A stretch of 64,000 bases of DNA from Georgenia yuyongxinii (lineage in GTDB: Bacteria; Actinomycetota; Actinomycetes; Actinomycetales; Actinomycetaceae): positions 496,001-560,000 of the forward strand of contig NZ_CP040915.1 of NCBI RefSeq assembly GCF_006352065.1, read 5' to 3'. Position numbers and translations under genes: made by a program. Below are positions 845 through 42,988 of this stretch, in pieces. Positions within the stretch are counted from its first letter, which is position 1; every line of letters begins with the position of its first letter. The notes beneath the pieces were generated by a model. It saw only the letters and a program-made list of their open reading frames with translations, searched no databases and was not told the origin of the DNA.

Positions 845-922
845 CGCGAGATGTCATCTTCTCCGCGAGATGTCATCCCGCCCGCCCTCCCGCGAGATGT
901 CATGATCTCACCGAGATGTCAT
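845..922 (+). repeat. Dispersed paired 13-mer repeat, locus A (two pairs)
   Basis: Four copies of CGCGAGATGTCAT or close variants start at 845, 864, 891 and 910. Each pair has starts 19 bp apart with a 6-bp spacer (CTTCTC in the first pair, GATCTC in the second). The pairs fill the ispD-ispF gap. The same paired unit recurs at five other places in this window. I do not recognise a named repeat family. Confidence 0.85.
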
Positions 923-5794: not shown

Positions 5795-6958
5795 GTGACC
5801 TGGAACCGCACCGAGGGCGTGCTCGTCGCGCCCACGCTCGACCCGGAGGCGGTCGCCGCCCACCTTGACGCAGCGGCCGTGGTCGCGCGCCTGGAGTGGT
5901 ACCCCGGCACCGAGCACCTGCTCTCCGTCTCCATCCTGTCCGACGGCGCTGGCCGGGTGGGCACCAACCGGGACGGGCAGGTGGCGCCCGGGCCGGCCAT
6001 CGCCGAGCTGGCCGACGGTCTCGGGACGGCGTTCGACGCCGACGTGCTCATGGAGGGCGTGTACCCCGAGGGGCGGCACACCCTGGAGCCGGACGCCGAA
6101 GGCGCCGCAGACCCGGCGGCCGTGGACGACGGCATCCCCGGGGTGGTCGAGGACGACGTGCACGACGCCCGCACGGTGGTGCTCACCGCGATGTCCATGC
6201 GCCAGGCGCCGCTGCAGGCCAGCCTGCTGCGCCGCGACGTCACCGTCACCGAGCAGCCCGTGGGAGAGGAGACCCGCCTGCTGCTCGTGACGACCGGCAC
6301 GGGCCACGAGCTCGGCGTGCACGGCTGGGACCCTGACGCCTACCCGGTGCTGCGCCTGCAGGTCGACGACGAGGACCGCACCGCGACGCTCCTGCCCGGG
6401 CCCGAGGCCTCCGAGGGCGAGCCGGAGGGCGTCGCCGTGTTCAGCTGGGCGATGCACAGCCGGTTCGTGTTCGGCGACGGCGGGACCTCGGGCGGATCCT
6501 CGGGCGGGTCCTCGGGAGGGTCCTCGGGCGGGAGCGCGCCGAGCGCGTCAGATCCGGTCCGCGCGCTGGCCCACGACCTGCTCGGCGACGGCGACGACGC
6601 CGCGCTGTTCGCGGCCGCGATCCCCGGCGCCGAGCCCGAGGCGGTCGTCGCGTCGTTCGCCCGACCCGGCGCCGAGGGGCTCGCCGCGTTCATCGCGGCG
6701 CTGGGGCTGCCGGCCGCCGTGACCGAGGTGCTCGAGGGCCGCGCCGAACCGGAGAGCCTGCCAAGCGCCGTCGTCCACCACCCGGAGCGGCTGGACCGCG
6801 CCGCGGCAGCCTCGGCGAAGATCGTCCTGAGCTCGGGCGCCCAAGCGGTGCGCGCGGCGCCCGCCACCCCGTGGGTGGGCCGGGCGACCGTCGCGGCGGC
6901 CTGCGCGGTCGCCGCCGGCCTCGTGGTGCGCTGGCTGCTCCGGCGCGCGCAGCGATAA
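5795..6958 (+). CDS. Hypothetical actinobacterial protein with C-terminal membrane anchor
   Basis: I do not recognise the family. The 387-residue acidic protein has an N-terminal domain of about 230 residues that begins with EGVLVAPTLDPEAVAAHLDA and holds several beta-like segments. A linker of four 12-bp repeats follows (Gly-Gly-Ser-Ser units, 6488-6535), then an Ala-rich helical region and one hydrophobic segment near the C-terminus followed by Arg-rich residues. The topology suggests a large cytosolic part tethered to the membrane. The start is GTG, about 10 nt behind an AAAGGA sequence. It may be co-transcribed with rlmB, 63 bp upstream. Confidence 0.7.
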   Translation: MTWNRTEGVLVAPTLDPEAVAAHLDAAAVVARLEWYPGTEHLLSVSILSDGAGRVGTNRDGQVAPGPAIAELADGLGTAFDADVLMEGVYPEGRHTLEPDAEGAADPAAVDDGIPGVVEDDVHDARTVVLTAMSMRQAPLQASLLRRDVTVTEQPVGEETRLLLVTTGTGHELGVHGWDPDAYPVLRLQVDDEDRTATLLPGPEASEGEPEGVAVFSWAMHSRFVFGDGGTSGGSSGGSSGGSSGGSAPSASDPVRALAHDLLGDGDDAALFAAAIPGAEPEAVVASFARPGAEGLAAFIAALGLPAAVTEVLEGRAEPESLPSAVVHHPERLDRAAAASAKIVLSSGAQAVRAAPATPWVGRATVAAACAVAAGLVVRWLLRRAQR

Positions 6959-6995
6959 CGCGCCGGTGGCGCGGCATCTCACCCCGCCCCTCCCG

Positions 6996-7181
6996 CGTGA
7001 GATGTCATCTTCTCAGAGCCCCTTTCCCGCGTGAGATGTCATCTTCTCCGCGAGTCATAGCCGCCCCTGCGGGGCGGCCCGGTAGGGCTGGAAATGCTCG
7101 CGCGCGCTTTGTACCGTCCGATGTCGCGAGCATTTCCGGATCAGAAGTCATGACATGTCGCGGAGAAGATGACATCTCACG
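6996..7181. repeat. Dispersed paired 13-mer repeat, locus B, flanking a hairpin
   Basis: A single CGTGAGATGTCAT lies at 6996-7008. A pair follows at 7030-7042 and 7049-7058, the second copy missing three bases. On the other strand a pair lies at 7150-7162 and 7169-7181. The pairs keep the 19-bp start-to-start distance. Between the facing sets sits an inverted repeat with 13-bp arms. The region separates two convergent genes. Confidence 0.85.
7090..7137. terminator. Inverted repeat between convergent genes, possible bidirectional terminator
   Basis: Arms GGAAATGCTCGCG (7090-7102) and CGCGAGCATTTCC (7125-7137) pair perfectly around a 22-nt loop. There is no T-run. It is placed to end transcription of both convergent neighbours. 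Its arm begins with CGCGAG, like the surrounding 13-mer repeats, so it may instead belong to that repeat structure. Confidence 0.45.
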
Positions 7182-7211
7182 GGGGGACGCAAGGGGGCGA
7201 ACAGGCGGGCG

Positions 7212-8462
7212 TCAGTCGATGGCCGGGTCGTCCGCGATGCCGCCGTGGTGCAGGAAGGCGCGCTCGTCGGGGCGATGGCGCAGCACGTTATCGGTGTAGG
7301 ACCGGATGGCCTCGTGCATCGGCACGTCCCGCTGCTGCTGCTCGGAGATGAACCAGCGGTGCTCGAGCACCTCGTGGAAGATCTCCGCCGGCTCGAGCTT
7401 GCGTCGCAGGTCGCGGGGCACGGCGCGCACGGTGGGGGTGAAGACCTCGTCGAGCCAGTCGTGGGCGACGATGGTGAGGTCCTCGTTCTGCCGATCCGTC
7501 GCGGCGCGGTAGGCGTCGAGGTCGTTGAGCATGCGCCGGGCCTGGTTTTCTTGCACGTCTTGGCCGGTCAGGCGCATGACCTGGCGGTGGAAGTGGCCGG
7601 CGTCGACCACCTTGGGCTGGATGCTCACGGTGGTGCCGTCGATGTCGGTGGTGATCGAGAGCTCGCCCACGTCGTACCCGAGCTCGTTGAGCCGGTTGAT
7701 GCGGGCCTCCACCCGCCACCGATCGCCGGCCTCGAAGGACTCCTCGCGGGTGAGCTCGGCCCACAGCGACTCGTAGCGCTCCACGATCTGATTCCCGACC
7801 TCGATGACGTCGACGTCCTCGTCCAGGGCCTCCCCGGCCTGCAGGTCCATCAGCTCGCCGATGATGTTGGTGCGGGCCAGGTCCAGGTCGTAGTTGCGCT
7901 GGCCGGGGGTGAGCTGGGGGTGCAGCTCCCCGGTCTCGGCGTCGACCAGGTACGCGGCGAATGCGCCGGCGTCGCGGCGGAAGAGGGTGTTGGACAGTGA
8001 CACGTCGCCCCAGTAGAAGCCCGTGAGGTGCAGGCGAACGAGAAGCACGGCCAGGGCGTCGATGAGCCGGTCGGCGGTCTCGGGGCGCATGTACTGGCTG
8101 AACAGGGCCCGGTAGGGCAGGGAGTACTGCAGGTGCTCGGTGACCAGGGCCGAGTTGAGGGGCTCGCCGTCGGGGGCGACGCGGCCGGTGATGACGGCCA
8201 GCGGCTGCACCGAGGGGGTGTCGAGGCGGGCGAGGGCCCGGAGCTGGTCGTACTCGTGGTGGGCCACGGACTCGCCGATCTCCTTCACGGCGATGATGCG
8301 GCCGGAGAGCTTGACGAACCGGACCACGTGGCGGGAGATGCCGCGGGGCAGGGCGGCGAGGACGTCCTCGGGCCATTCCTCGAGGGGCACCTCCCACGGC
8401 AGGTCCAGCAGCGCCGGGTCCACCCGGGCCGCGGTGATCTGCAGCTGCTGTGCCGTGGTCAT
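7212..8462 (-). CDS. DUF4032 domain protein with kinase-like fold
   Basis: The protein is 416 residues from the chosen ATG. The first half resembles the lipopolysaccharide-kinase/protein-kinase-like fold: FVKLSGRIIAVKEIGE holds the likely ATP-binding lysine, and GFYWGDVSLSNTLFRRD with YLVDAETGEL resemble catalytic and metal-binding loops. The C-terminal half is the DUF4032 region common in actinobacteria. The substrate is unknown. The frame is open upstream to 8585, but that stretch runs into repeat locus C and reads as low-complexity sequence, so the ATG before TTAQQLQIT is preferred. Confidence 0.8.
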   Translation of the reverse strand: MTTAQQLQITAARVDPALLDLPWEVPLEEWPEDVLAALPRGISRHVVRFVKLSGRIIAVKEIGESVAHHEYDQLRALARLDTPSVQPLAVITGRVAPDGEPLNSALVTEHLQYSLPYRALFSQYMRPETADRLIDALAVLLVRLHLTGFYWGDVSLSNTLFRRDAGAFAAYLVDAETGELHPQLTPGQRNYDLDLARTNIIGELMDLQAGEALDEDVDVIEVGNQIVERYESLWAELTREESFEAGDRWRVEARINRLNELGYDVGELSITTDIDGTTVSIQPKVVDAGHFHRQVMRLTGQDVQENQARRMLNDLDAYRAATDRQNEDLTIVAHDWLDEVFTPTVRAVPRDLRRKLEPAEIFHEVLEHRWFISEQQQRDVPMHEAIRSYTDNVLRHRPDERAFLHHGGIADDPAID

Positions 8463-8543: not shown

Positions 8544-8591
8544 ATGACTCGCGGAGGAAATGACATCTCGCGGAGGAGTCGACATCTCGCG
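8544..8591 (-). repeat. Dispersed paired 13-mer repeat, locus C
   Basis: Read on the minus strand, copies lie at 8579-8591 and 8560-8572 (starts 19 bp apart), with a third shortened copy at 8544-8552 lacking the bases corresponding to CAT. The cluster sits just upstream of the DUF4032 gene, in the 234-bp gap before the ABC ATPase gene. Apart from the repeats this gap holds only a GC-rich tract with no clear signal. Confidence 0.85.
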
Positions 8592-13399: not shown

Positions 13400-14642
13400 C
13401 AAGCTCACTCGGGTGCTCGGCATGGCCGGGTTAGCCGGCTCCACAGTTGCCGGTGCCGGTGCCGGTGCCGGTGCCGGTGCCGGTGCCGGTGCCGGTGCGG
13501 GCGGTGCCGTGGCGGGTGGCGCAGCCACCAGGGCAATGCCGGACGGCGGTCCCCGCCTCCCAGCCGTCTCTCCCTTCGAGGACGGCACCCGCGCCGCGGG
13601 ACCCAGCGCCGCGGGACCCAGCGCCGCGACGGCGGTGCCGCAGGAGGCGGCCGGCTCTCGCTCGGCCCCGGTCGGCGAGCCGCCGACCCGTGCGATCCCC
13701 GTCGAGCCGCAGACGCGGGCGTACCCGGCGGAGCCCGCCACGCGCACGTTCCCGGTAGAGCCCGCCACCCGGGCGCTGCCGCTCGAGCCCGCCACCCAGA
13801 CGATGCCGGCCCAGCCGCCGCGGATGCCGGAGTCCTACCCACCGCGGCAGGGCGGACCGGTCGGCCACCCCCGGCAGGACGTGATGGGTTCCGGGTATCC
13901 CCCGACCGAGGCAGGCACGGGTTACCCCGGCAATCAGGTCGACCGAGGGCTGCCCATGGGCCCCGGCCACCCCGGCGGCTACGGCGCCGAGCCCTTCCCC
14001 GGCCGGCCCGGCGGGGACATCCAGCCCTACCCGGGCCAGCCCGGCTTCCAGGAGCCACCACCGGCGTGGGCGTTCCCGGCACGGCGCCGCACGCTGGTGG
14101 TCGGCGCCGTGGGCCTTGGTGTCAGCGCGGTGGCCACCGCCTTTCCGGGAGCCTTCCTGGTGGTCGTCGCGGCGTTGCTGGTGCTCACCGCGACCACGGG
14201 CTGGGCGGGCCGCTCGCGGCGCGCGTCGCGCCTGCGCCGCGGGGTCCGGCAGGGCGATGACGCGCGCATGCTCGCCGGCCTGCCCTGGCACCTGGTGCGC
14301 GGCGTCCTCAGCAGCCTGCCCGGCGCGCTCATCGGCGTCACCGTCGGCGCCGCGACCTGGTGGATCCTCACCGCGCTCGGCGACCCGCGGCTGGTCGAGC
14401 CGATCGTGCTCTGGGCCGCCGCGCTCCTTGCCCTGCTTGCCGCCTGGTTCGCCCCCGGCGGTCGCGCGGCACGCGACGGGGCACGCGCGATGGTGGAGGT
14501 GCTCACCCCGACGCGTGGCTTCCGCGCCCTGCTGGTGGTGCTGGTGCTTCTGGTGGCCGTCGTGCTGGTGGCGCAGACGGTCTTGGTGGCCCCGGCGCCG
14601 CCGAGCTGGTCGCCCCTCCCCGGGCCGCCCTTCGGCTTCTGA
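13248..14642 (+). CDS. Ser/Thr kinase, linker and membrane part (3' part of a frameshifted gene)
   Basis: This frame continues the kinase C-lobe (LARVATGQAD..., ending GPDGVLAVLDGQW) and would join the upstream part if one base were removed near 13228. Next come an Ala-Gly repeat encoded by eight GCCGGT hexamers, a long Pro-rich linker with degenerate units such as PATRTFPVE, and a C-terminal region with four to five hydrophobic segments (from about 14085) interrupted by an Arg-rich loop. There are no PASTA repeats. The joined protein would be a receptor-like or membrane-anchored kinase of unknown signal. Read alone, this part lacks ATP-binding and catalytic motifs. Confidence 0.75.
   Translation: MLARVATGQADTGGLDPVVARALGAALDPDPAQRLGPDGVLAVLDGQWGDDKLTRVLGMAGLAGSTVAGAGAGAGAGAGAGAGAGGAVAGGAATRAMPDGGPRLPAVSPFEDGTRAAGPSAAGPSAATAVPQEAAGSRSAPVGEPPTRAIPVEPQTRAYPAEPATRTFPVEPATRALPLEPATQTMPAQPPRMPESYPPRQGGPVGHPRQDVMGSGYPPTEAGTGYPGNQVDRGLPMGPGHPGGYGAEPFPGRPGGDIQPYPGQPGFQEPPPAWAFPARRRTLVVGAVGLGVSAVATAFPGAFLVVVAALLVLTATTGWAGRSRRASRLRRGVRQGDDARMLAGLPWHLVRGVLSSLPGALIGVTVGAATWWILTALGDPRLVEPIVLWAAALLALLAAWFAPGGRAARDGARAMVEVLTPTRGFRALLVVLVLLVAVVLVAQTVLVAPAPPSWSPLPGPPFGF
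13449..13496. repeat. (GCCGGT)8 hexanucleotide microsatellite
   Basis: Eight perfect GCCGGT units encode (Ala-Gly)8 just behind the kinase domain. Gain or loss of units would change linker length but keep the frame. Confidence 0.95.
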
Positions 14643-35507: not shown

Positions 35508-35898
35508 ATCCGGTCTCGGAGCACCTGTGACACCTCGCGGAGAGGTCGACATTTCGCGGACCGCGGGAGGCGGCGCGCGCACCGGGGCAGGGGAAGAGGG
35601 CTTCCACGCCCGCTGGGTCGCCGCGCTGACCGAGCTCGAGGTCGACGTCGCCGAGGCCGAGCGCAGCCTCACCGGCGACCACATGCCCGAGCGGCGCGAC
35701 CCGTGGCAGCCGCCGCAGGAGCTCGGCCCCATGCCCGCTTCGCTCCGCACTCGGGCTCAGGCGCTTCTGGAGCGCCAGACCGAGGTCGCCCGCCAGGTTG
35801 CCGAGGCCGCCGCCATGAGCCGCAAGCAGGCCCGCGCCGTCCAGGCCATGCGCGCGAACGGACCTGCCCGACCCGTCTACGTCGACATGGCGGGCTGA
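35497..35898 (+). CDS. Small flagellar-operon protein after fliS (FliT-like position)
   Basis: A 133-residue protein in the place where FliT or another small chaperone is often encoded. Its C-terminal two thirds are helical (FHARWVAALTELEVDVAEAE; SLRTRAQALLERQTEVARQV; SRKQARAVQAMRANG). The N-terminal 25 residues are encoded across a copy of the dispersed 13-mer pair and read TPRGEVDISRTAGG, so the original start may have been replaced by repeat sequence. Starts are possible at GTG 35497 (overlapping fliS) or GTG 35527. I cannot confirm FliT homology. Confidence 0.65.
   Translation: MSPESGLGAPVTPRGEVDISRTAGGGARTGAGEEGFHARWVAALTELEVDVAEAERSLTGDHMPERRDPWQPPQELGPMPASLRTRAQALLERQTEVARQVAEAAAMSRKQARAVQAMRANGPARPVYVDMAG
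35527..35558 (-). repeat. Dispersed paired 13-mer repeat, locus D, inside a reading frame
   Basis: On the minus strand, variants of CGCGAGATGTCAT occupy 35546-35558 and 35527-35539, starts 19 bp apart. The copy forms the first codons of the small gene after fliS. It is more diverged than loci A-C. Confidence 0.7.
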
Positions 35899-41724: not shown

Positions 41725-42152
41725 GTACGTTCCGTCTGGCCGGGCTGGGCCGGTTGCGCCGGCTGCAGGAGGACCACGCCGCCGCCGAGCTGGCGCGCCG
41801 CGCCACGGACCGCCGCGGCGCCGACCGGCGCACCGCCGACGCGCGGGACTGGCTGGCCGGCACGGTGCTGTCGGGGACGTCGGACCCGCAGAGCTGGCGG
41901 GCTGCCGTGGCCGCGCGCGCGGCGATGAGCGCGACGGTGATCGCCGCGCAGGCCGCCGCGGAGGTGGCGGCGGAGCACGAGACGCAGGCGCAGACCCAGT
42001 GGGTCGCGGCGCGCAAGCGGTCCAAGACGGTGGAGAAGCTCGCCGAGCGCCACCGCGACGAGGAGCAGGTGGCCGAGCTGCGCGCCGAGCAGCAGGTGCT
42101 CGACGAGATGGCCACCCAGCGGGCAGCGCGGCGCACGGAGGACGAGTCGTGA
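41721..42152 (+). CDS. fliJ: Flagellar export protein FliJ
   Basis: A 143-residue coiled-coil protein in the FliJ position between fliI and fliK. It starts FRLAGLGRLRRLQEDHAAAE and has long charged heptads; VEKLAERHRDEEQVAELRAE near the end is FliJ-like. FliJ is the stalk of the FliH-FliI ATPase, binding FlhA and recycling chaperones. Sequence conservation of the family is weak, so position carries much of the call. Confidence 0.85.
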   Translation: MSTFRLAGLGRLRRLQEDHAAAELARRATDRRGADRRTADARDWLAGTVLSGTSDPQSWRAAVAARAAMSATVIAAQAAAEVAAEHETQAQTQWVAARKRSKTVEKLAERHRDEEQVAELRAEQQVLDEMATQRAARRTEDES

Positions 42153-42988
42153 GCGGCGTCGCGGCCGTGCAGGCGCGAATGGCCGAGATCTCGGCGCGGA
42201 TCGCGATGGTGTCGGGAGCGACCCCGTCCGCTGCGACCGCTGTCTCCTCGCGAGATGTCAACTCCTCCGCGAGAAGTGACGCCGCGTTCGCTGCGGCGCT
42301 CGACACCGCGGTCGCCGGGACGGCCTCTTCGTCGTCGTCGGGGCTTTCGCCCGCCGAGCTGCTCGCCCGGTTCACCGGCGCGCAGGCCGGCACCGGCGCA
42401 GCGTTCGTCGCCTCGGCGTCGAAGTACCTCGGTGTGCCGTATGTGTGGGGCGGCGAGGACGCCACCGGCATGGACTGTTCCGGGCTGATCCAGCGCGCCT
42501 TCGCGGACATGGGCGTGTCCGTGCCGCGCACCGCCCGCGAGCAGATGAAGGTCGGCACCGAGGTGGGCTCGCTGTCCCAGGCTCAGCCAGGCGACCTCAT
42601 CGTCACCCGCGGTGGCGCCCACATCGCCATCTACCTCGGCGACAACAAGATCCTGCACGCCCCACGTCCGGGCGAGCAGGTCTCCGTCCGCGAGCTGTTC
42701 GAGACCGACGCGGACATCGACACGATCCGGCGAGTCGTGCCCGCCGCGTCCGCTCCCGGGTTCGACGCGGCCCAGGTGGCGGCGACGGCGGCGGCCGGGC
42801 TGGGTGGCAGTGCGGCGTTCGGAGGGGTCGGTGGTCTGGGGGCGGGTGGCGCGCTCGCGAGCCTTGGGACGGCAGGCTCGCTCGCCCGTCTGGGCGTGGG
42901 CTCGCTTGGCGGTCCGGGCGGTGGCGCGGCGGCCATGGCCGCGACCGAGCAGGCCCGACTGGCCCTTGGGCTGTCGGGGGCGATCTGA
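42149..42988 (+). CDS. NlpC/P60 peptidoglycan hydrolase in the flagellar operon
   Basis: The 279-residue protein has a central NlpC/P60 cysteine peptidase domain (about 85-190): ASKYLGVPYVWGG, catalytic Cys110 in MDCSGLIQRAF, His158 in GAHIAIYLGD and His170 in ILHAPRPG. Such enzymes cut D-Glu-diaminopimelate-type bonds in wall peptides. There is no standard signal peptide, so it is probably exported through the flagellar channel to open the wall for the rod, taking the part of FlgJ's muramidase; this is inferred. A Gly/Ala-rich tail follows. Residues 34-44 are encoded by a dispersed-repeat copy. It overlaps fliJ and fliK. Confidence 0.88.
   Translation: MSGVAAVQARMAEISARIAMVSGATPSAATAVSSRDVNSSARSDAAFAAALDTAVAGTASSSSSGLSPAELLARFTGAQAGTGAAFVASASKYLGVPYVWGGEDATGMDCSGLIQRAFADMGVSVPRTAREQMKVGTEVGSLSQAQPGDLIVTRGGAHIAIYLGDNKILHAPRPGEQVSVRELFETDADIDTIRRVVPAASAPGFDAAQVAATAAAGLGGSAAFGGVGGLGAGGALASLGTAGSLARLGVGSLGGPGGGAAAMAATEQARLALGLSGAI
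42249..42280 (+). repeat. Dispersed paired 13-mer repeat, locus E, inside the NlpC/P60 gene
   Basis: CGCGAGATGTCAA at 42249-42261 and CGCGAGAAGTGAC at 42268-42280, starts again 19 bp apart. It is read through in frame as part of SSRDVNSSARSD in the linker before the peptidase domain, so it does not break the gene. Confidence 0.75.

Follow-up and report, generated by a model that had tools for sequence, protein, structure and literature searches.

For the REP/BIME repeats of E. coli, binding of gyrase or of a nucleoid protein has been proposed, while DNA uptake sequences (DUS) number roughly two thousand per genome and lie at gene ends. In the excerpts consulted of three further accounts, a single REP unit is an imperfect palindrome carrying a GTAG or CGTC tag (PMC3733652), tandem forms are reported for REP/REPIN repeats too (PMC3116915), and the TAACTGA direct repeats of Beggiatoaceae form about 170 sets (PMC4679880). 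Among the literature matches listed, in a search part of which carries little weight, there was no report of the paired-box repeat described here.

The core of this box is GAG-N-N-GTCA, with a spelling that differs per species. In the genome under study, two boxes at 19 bp make up an arm of 31 bp, which occurs by itself, facing a second arm, or at each end of an element of ~153 bp. The boxes are directional, and often lie just past a stop codon, oriented with the reading of the gene. Our tentative main reading, to which we give a probability of about 0.4, is that of REPIN/MITE-like repeats, lacking RAYT, which have probably come to work as a directional module at gene ends that a putative factor reads. 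We infer the gene-end role of the boxes and, along with it, a trans-acting reader, spread by copying, and an effect on transcript ends.

Paired boxes in the window and across the genome

The window, that is, the whole stretch of 64,000 nucleotides analyzed, corresponds to positions 496001-560000 of a 4,171,640-base contig. A first-pass annotation had described pairs of a 13-mer in it with starts 19 bp apart, and such pairs are indeed present, including truncated and decayed ones that keep the pitch (Table 1). Specifically, the pairs starting at 845/864, 891/910, 7150/7169 (minus strand) and 8560/8579 (minus strand) matched a two-box pattern with at most three mismatches, which was found 0 times in 100 shuffles, and those at 35527/35546 and 42249/42268 were decayed, by eye, and still 19 bp apart. 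Single boxes with up to two mismatches numbered 12 in the window versus 2.1 expected. The products of the genes flanking the first pair are IspD and IspF according to Pfam.

Table 1. Boxes, box pairs and the MITE-like element in the window.
Feature	Position	Strand	Context
Box pair, exact consensus	845..876	+	Between ispD and ispF; start 9 nt past ispD stop
Second box pair, same ispD/ispF gap	891..922	+	C-rich stretch 877-890 precedes pair
Single box	6996..7008	+	Past stop of + gene 5795-6958; unpaired
Arm of long element	7030..7061	+	Second box short by 3 bases
MITE-like element, arms facing	7033..7185		Block common to second genomic place
Opposite arm (box pair) of long element	7150..7181	-	Past stop of - gene 7212-8462 (DUF4032, Pfam)
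Box pair	8560..8591	-	Between two - strand genes; 105 nt past upstream stop
Decayed box pair, pitch kept	35527..35558	-	Opposite to neighbouring + genes
Decayed box pair	42249..42280	+	In frame within ORF 42149-42988; reads SSRDVNSSAR

The dispersed nature of the repeat and its fixed spacing, both noted in the window, extend to the whole genome, in which the paired box CGCGAGATGTCAT with starts 19 bp apart occupied 177 places at up to two mismatches and the reversed pattern none. A chance origin of the paired boxes is ruled out by the shuffles, the excess of single boxes and this reversed control. The sample from this genome (G000, the G-codes denoting the nine genomes of the genus) was drawn from the listed part of the 177 places, ranked by mismatch count, and comprised 30 loci and 40 regions round most of the other listed places, plus the window. 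Samples from the relatives G107 and G126 comprised 20 regions each, from among the matches listed. Gene calls came from a home-made caller based on codon usage, with the window as training set, and can be wrong in single cases.

Same-strand neighbors 14-25 bp apart were at exactly 19 bp in 122 of 123 cases in the own genome, 81 of 85 in G107 and 53 of 54 in G126; these spacing counts are biased because the loci were mostly chosen with the 19-bp pattern, while gene context, direction and leader counts were not picked for. With a looser single-box pattern, in which only the terminal CG leans towards the next box, 18 of 18 neighbor pairs 14-25 bp apart were at 19 by eye, among the matches listed. 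The proposal that the spacing is under constraint therefore stands only in part: there were 6 spacing variants among 262 neighbors versus 536 linker substitutions over 2,560 sites, but most loci had been selected by the pitch itself, G107 and G126 have longer arrays in which tandem duplication alone keeps the pitch, and a further relative, G022, has boxes without it. The same annotation had put 19 bp close to two helical turns, an overestimate, given that 19 bp is ~1.8 turns of B-DNA; the pitch could reflect a dimer, or a repeated module, bound along one side of the helix.

Exactly two boxes were present in 84 of 100 arrays of the own genome. The conserved block of ~32 bp reads CGCGAGATGTCA-TCTTCTC-CGCGAGATGTCA, and outside it these arrays had no conserved sequence apart from base composition. 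The second box was more variable, with the spelling GACATGTCA in 18/122 second boxes versus 4/122 first boxes. A profile of 222 units gave a directional box in which no dyad was noted by eye.

Palindromic and MITE-like forms

A facing arm (at least 20/31 matches) within 120 nt downstream accompanied 36 of 99 arrays, which thus form inverted doublets of the REP/REPIN kind, with each palindrome counted twice, once per arm; there was 1 such arm upstream and 1 in shuffled sequence. The offset was 0-1 or 19-20 for 27 of the 36; at offset zero, the two arms form a palindrome of 62 bp. Solo arms were the majority (63/99 arrays without a facing arm). Additionally, the window block 7033-7185 and a second place, L089 (near 1,878,085), were 91% identical over 156 columns, with facing arms at both ends and unrelated flanks, so that, as in a MITE, terminal inverted repeats bound one block and the box pair is therefore the arm of a MITE-like element. 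A third place, L030 (near 934,307), had the interior and one arm in common with these (84% over 126 columns) and a left arm remnant (19/31). In total, the ~153-bp element had two full copies, one of them in the window, and one partial copy. At palindromic copies, no target-site duplication was seen by eye. The element interior (window 7062-7149; L030 ~1680-1770; L089 ~1585-1675) contained two hairpin-forming stretches in the three copies, AAATGCTCGCG...CGCGAGCATTT and GCCGCCCC...GGGGCGGC.

Arrays or arms were located within called genes in eight cases. The internal copies in L010, L026 and L104, the last a palindrome, were convincing by coding signal and position, L104 being the weakest of the three because one side has a negative coding score (arm scores of 13.8 on one side and -5.9 on the other). 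We take the host gene of L010 to resemble an ABC exporter and that of L104 a PucR-type regulator. The copies in L023, L092, L125 and L146 were near gene ends or had a doubtful downstream coding signal. All single-direction genic copies were oriented with the gene. The pair at 42249 lay, in frame, within a variable linker of its protein, presumably NlpC/P60-like; in the same linker, G126 had a single box of its own spelling at another spot and G094 had no pair there. The palindromic and MITE-like forms, the in-frame genic copies, and arrays present or absent at one gene end between species uphold the earlier suggestion of a small mobile or amplified element.

We also pursued potential sources of the element. 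A plasmid source was rejected, with 0 plasmid matches for the 50-base consensus, and for the interior no more than four plasmid matches came up, all weak, with E about 0.9 and 19-26% query coverage. A phage source was rejected as well, window 6990-7185 having no phage match, as was a viral source, for which viral-contig searches gave 1, 1, 0 and 0 hits and no match to the element interior. RAYT (Y1_Tnp, PF01797) was found in 0/9 genomes of the genus and in 5/14 control genomes, and the absence of PF01797 from 9/9 genomes rules out RAYT-driven REPs. The own genome had only three rve-type transposase matches, and the 31-bp arm (at least 18/31) was absent within ~1.5 kb of all three loci, so that a transposon with box arrays round its transposase was rejected for these rve-type loci.

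Purely selfish REPIN/MITE-like repeats, moved by an enzyme other than RAYT for which the boxes would be putative sites at the arm, are a serious contender, if short of an even chance. Gene-end placement would then result from a target preference for a C-rich tract on the 5' side, together with selection against insertion elsewhere. The palindrome, the MITE-like forms and the in-frame genic copies all fit such repeats, as do the presence or absence of arrays at the same gene end and a leader that tracks array direction, not gene direction (below). However, the genus lacks RAYT, none of the three rve matches comes with an arm, and target-site duplication went unseen by eye.

Direction, gene ends and the C-rich leader

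The position of the arrays relative to genes had escaped the first-pass annotation, which did not see direction, gene-end position, leader, palindrome or the unpaired box at 6996. In the three species, arrays lay in 51 convergent, 53 tandem and 3 divergent gaps, and all 28 gaps with both orientations had the arrays facing, with 0 backing. Predicted gyrase or nucleoid-protein sites between convergent genes would account for the scarcity of divergent gaps, but leave the single sense arrays near stops and the species spellings unexplained, and we regard them as very unlikely. Only tandem gaps make orientation informative, since either orientation trails some gene when a gap is convergent; in tandem gaps, single arrays pointed with the genes in 31 cases and against them in 12 (p=0.005). 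Sense arrays in tandem gaps started 0-35 nt past the upstream stop in 30 of 35 cases versus 9.6 expected if uniform, and convergent-gap arrays in 30 of 36 versus 13.7 expected, while opposite arrays did so in 3 of 15 versus 4.6 expected. It is at this tight placement past stops, closer than mere tolerance predicts, that the selfish explanation performs worst; overall it explains nearly as much as the gene-end reading and is nearly as likely. The 12 of 43 single tandem-gap arrays that point against the genes, on the other hand, count against the gene-end reading.

L008 and L035 carried arrays against the genes near the start of the downstream gene, which presumably resembles cmk, in matching positions of G000 and G126, and form a conserved exception to the sense rule. 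Facing arrays were also seen on either side of one gene, which we take to be acetyltransferase-like, in L017/L018 (G000:C1:116991-117735), and further facing arrays bracketed other single genes. Gene-carrying transposons were considered for these and dropped, because the gene-end rule alone yields facing, not backing, pairs round one gene.

The 20-30 nt before the first box were C-rich and G-poor, with a mean (C-G)/30 of 0.26 over 149 arrays. At 6-15 nt before the first box, C was 0.53-0.55 and G 0.16-0.21 in the own genome, and G107 and G126 followed the same trend. This leader goes with the array, not the gene, because the 27 opposite-type arrays were still C-rich (mean (C-G)/30 of 0.185, p=1.5e-5). 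It was not universal, the first array past ispD in the window being without one. Inheritance of the leader within the inverted repeat was unsupported, in that the two leaders of a facing pair were no closer than leaders from different elements (identity 8.3/20 within versus 8.7 between elements).

RNA round the stop of 57 array genes was weakly folded, averaging -8 to -12 kcal/mol for 40 nt, versus about -12 to -15 kcal/mol for 40 nt in 52 other genes, while the best hairpin within about 165 nt of an array-gene stop was not significantly weaker (p=0.10). Gene ends were compared across relatives, among them those of two genes presumed to be kgd and argG. Past kgd, a hairpin was present in 9/9 species; in G000 and G126 four boxes lay between the stop and the intact hairpin, the G094 version was decayed, and G022 had a single box of its own spelling beyond the hairpin. 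Past argG, a facing palindrome was found in G000 and G094 where most others carry a hairpin, and G107 had a hairpin followed by facing arrays. Since arrays are present or absent beside hairpins at these two ends, they are additions and not obligatory terminators; together with hairpin strength, the comparison leaves arrays as replacements for hairpin terminators unsupported. The kgd arrays, preceding an intact hairpin and so not needed for termination, also count against the gene-end reading. In G076, a relative without boxes, the region past argG (L201, 2931-3050) carried an unrelated 19-bp tandem repeat, GATCCCTCTGTTGCCGAAC, in 6.3 copies.

The kgd arrays, lying before the terminator hairpin, would therefore be transcribed, which is what would be expected of a 3'-UTR RNA element whose boxes a putative RNA-binding protein or small RNA reads in the mRNA tail, setting stability or end processing. 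The sense direction just past the stop and the unstructured leader are consistent with this explanation as well. We nonetheless consider it improbable, as a pitch fixed at 19 bases would be expected of DNA sooner than of flexible RNA, some arrays lie on the opposite strand, and Rfam gave 0 matches at gathering score in seven array loci, a result that also tells against a known structured RNA.

At the ispD gene end, G126 carried a 3-box array in its own spelling, and in the 8560 gap, upstream of the DUF4032 gene, arrays were present in G107 and G126 and a decayed one in G094. Gene ends in common with the own-genome sample made up 3/21 loci of G107 and 5/22 of G126. Ten shared sites, including the ispD gap, the gap upstream of the DUF4032 gene and one G107/G126 site, were compared by eye; array direction agreed in nine, the exception being the DUF4032 gap in G000 versus G107, and the linkers differed.

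Under the main reading, the family would have multiplied by copying in the manner of REPIN/MITE elements, and a putative trans-acting factor, its specificity shifting between species, would recognize boxes at fixed spacing. This factor would most likely act at gene ends, where leader and boxes may help to stop RNA polymerase from one side, as a polar roadblock, perhaps with Rho. A more specific version appears doubtful, namely a lineage-specific gene-end system in which a putative DNA-binding factor of species-shifting specificity reads GAG-N-N-GTCA boxes past the stop and ends transcription one-sidedly, at sites seeded by a palindromic mobile element.

Species spellings and comparison with known systems

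Across the nine genomes, pairs with at most one mismatch numbered 182 in G000, 173 in G126, 109 in G107, 11 in G133, 5 in G094 and 1 in G119, and 0 in G052, G022 and G076; all controls were 0 across the nine. The box is spelled GAGATGTCA in the own genome, GAGA(C/G)GTCA in G107 and GAGACGTCA in G126, and the 19-bp pitch was present in all three. G107 and G126 had longer tandem arrays, with linkers that resembled each other more inside one array than from locus to locus (identity 0.80 versus 0.64 in G107 and 0.69 versus 0.59 in G126), which did not hold for G000 (0.78 versus 0.77). Arrays in these two relatives therefore grow by local duplication, which itself keeps the pitch.

Among noncoding 9-mers in a 400-kb portion of G022, those with the strongest over-representation belonged to GAGCGGTCAAGTAC, and the 12-mer GAGCGGTCAAGT with at most one mismatch occurred 10 times, versus 0 for the reversed control and 3 and 1 for permuted controls. 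All 10 boxes were noncoding, and for the seven with a measurable distance past the stop, six were at 4-30 nt and one at 95. Only 2 of the 10 were in tandem gaps, both in sense direction, and the leader was not significantly C-rich (mean 0.14, p=0.09). These boxes were mostly single, with one pair spaced 24 bp; membership of the family therefore does not depend on the pitch. A copy number at chance level or loss of the 19-bp phase had been named beforehand as outcomes that would count against the element; the own genome showed neither, and it is G022, with its mostly single boxes, that departs from the phase. Repeat autocorrelation detected no 19-bp excess in sampled noncoding DNA of G022, G119, G052, G094 and G133. 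G133 had a 16-bp tandem repeat containing CGGTCAAGAGC (L278, ~14459-14520), which may be one more spelling or a repeat of another kind, and, in the sample L273-L282, TTTCACGTG(AA) between genes (18 copies versus 0.2 expected), which we take to resemble ParB parS sites.

Outside the genus, exact GAGANGTCA-N10-GAGANGTCA was found in 0/395 other genomes of the order, and a related pattern, sought in 150 further genomes of the family, matched only in two members of the same genus, G107 and G126. A search of 84,980 species for exact GAGATGTCA-N10-GAGATGTCA returned seven lone matches in unrelated organisms, about the chance number for 18 fixed bases in 257 Gb, a collection from which the own genome may be left out. 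On these pattern searches, the family appears to be confined to this genus. DNA uptake sequences specific to the genus and split into dialects would seem extremely improbable, the boxes occupying about 100-200 places per genome versus roughly two thousand for DUS, and having a fixed pitch, although gene-end position and species spellings do recall the Neisseriaceae DUS, whose dialects are the subject of PMC3630211.

If the gene-end reading is true, a short mobile repeat would have turned into a directional gene-end mark, with a spelling that changes per species together with its reader. The genus would then offer a natural series, of four spellings or more, in which to follow a change of code in a genome-wide recognition system, with a bearing on transcript ending in high-GC actinobacteria. 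Even a purely selfish repeat would be a REPIN-like family with a mobilizer other than the known RAYT, still to be found.

Compared with REP/REPIN repeats, as far as the consulted excerpt of PMC3116915 describes them, the boxes are similarly short, present in many copies, mostly intergenic, arranged as inverted doublets and singlets, and apparently non-autonomous. They differ in that the unit is not itself a hairpin and has a fixed 19-bp pitch, and in their sense direction near stops, their C-rich leader and the lack of Y1_Tnp in 9/9 genomes. MITEs, in the portion of PMC10969869 available, likewise have facing terminal arms and no coding capacity (62-153 bp here), but for the present family no parent transposon was found, target-site duplication was unseen and 63/99 arrays were without a facing arm. 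Rickettsia palindromic elements (about 150 bp), in that same portion, resemble it in having in-frame copies within unrelated genes, which are a minority here. The TAACTGA repeats of Beggiatoaceae, in the excerpt of PMC4679880, are also short direct repeats between genes with a possible regulatory role, whereas they lie just upstream of start codons and across distant phyla. Finally, the DNA uptake sequence dialects of Neisseriaceae (PMC3630211) share species-specific spellings with the boxes, which are fewer and keep a fixed pitch.
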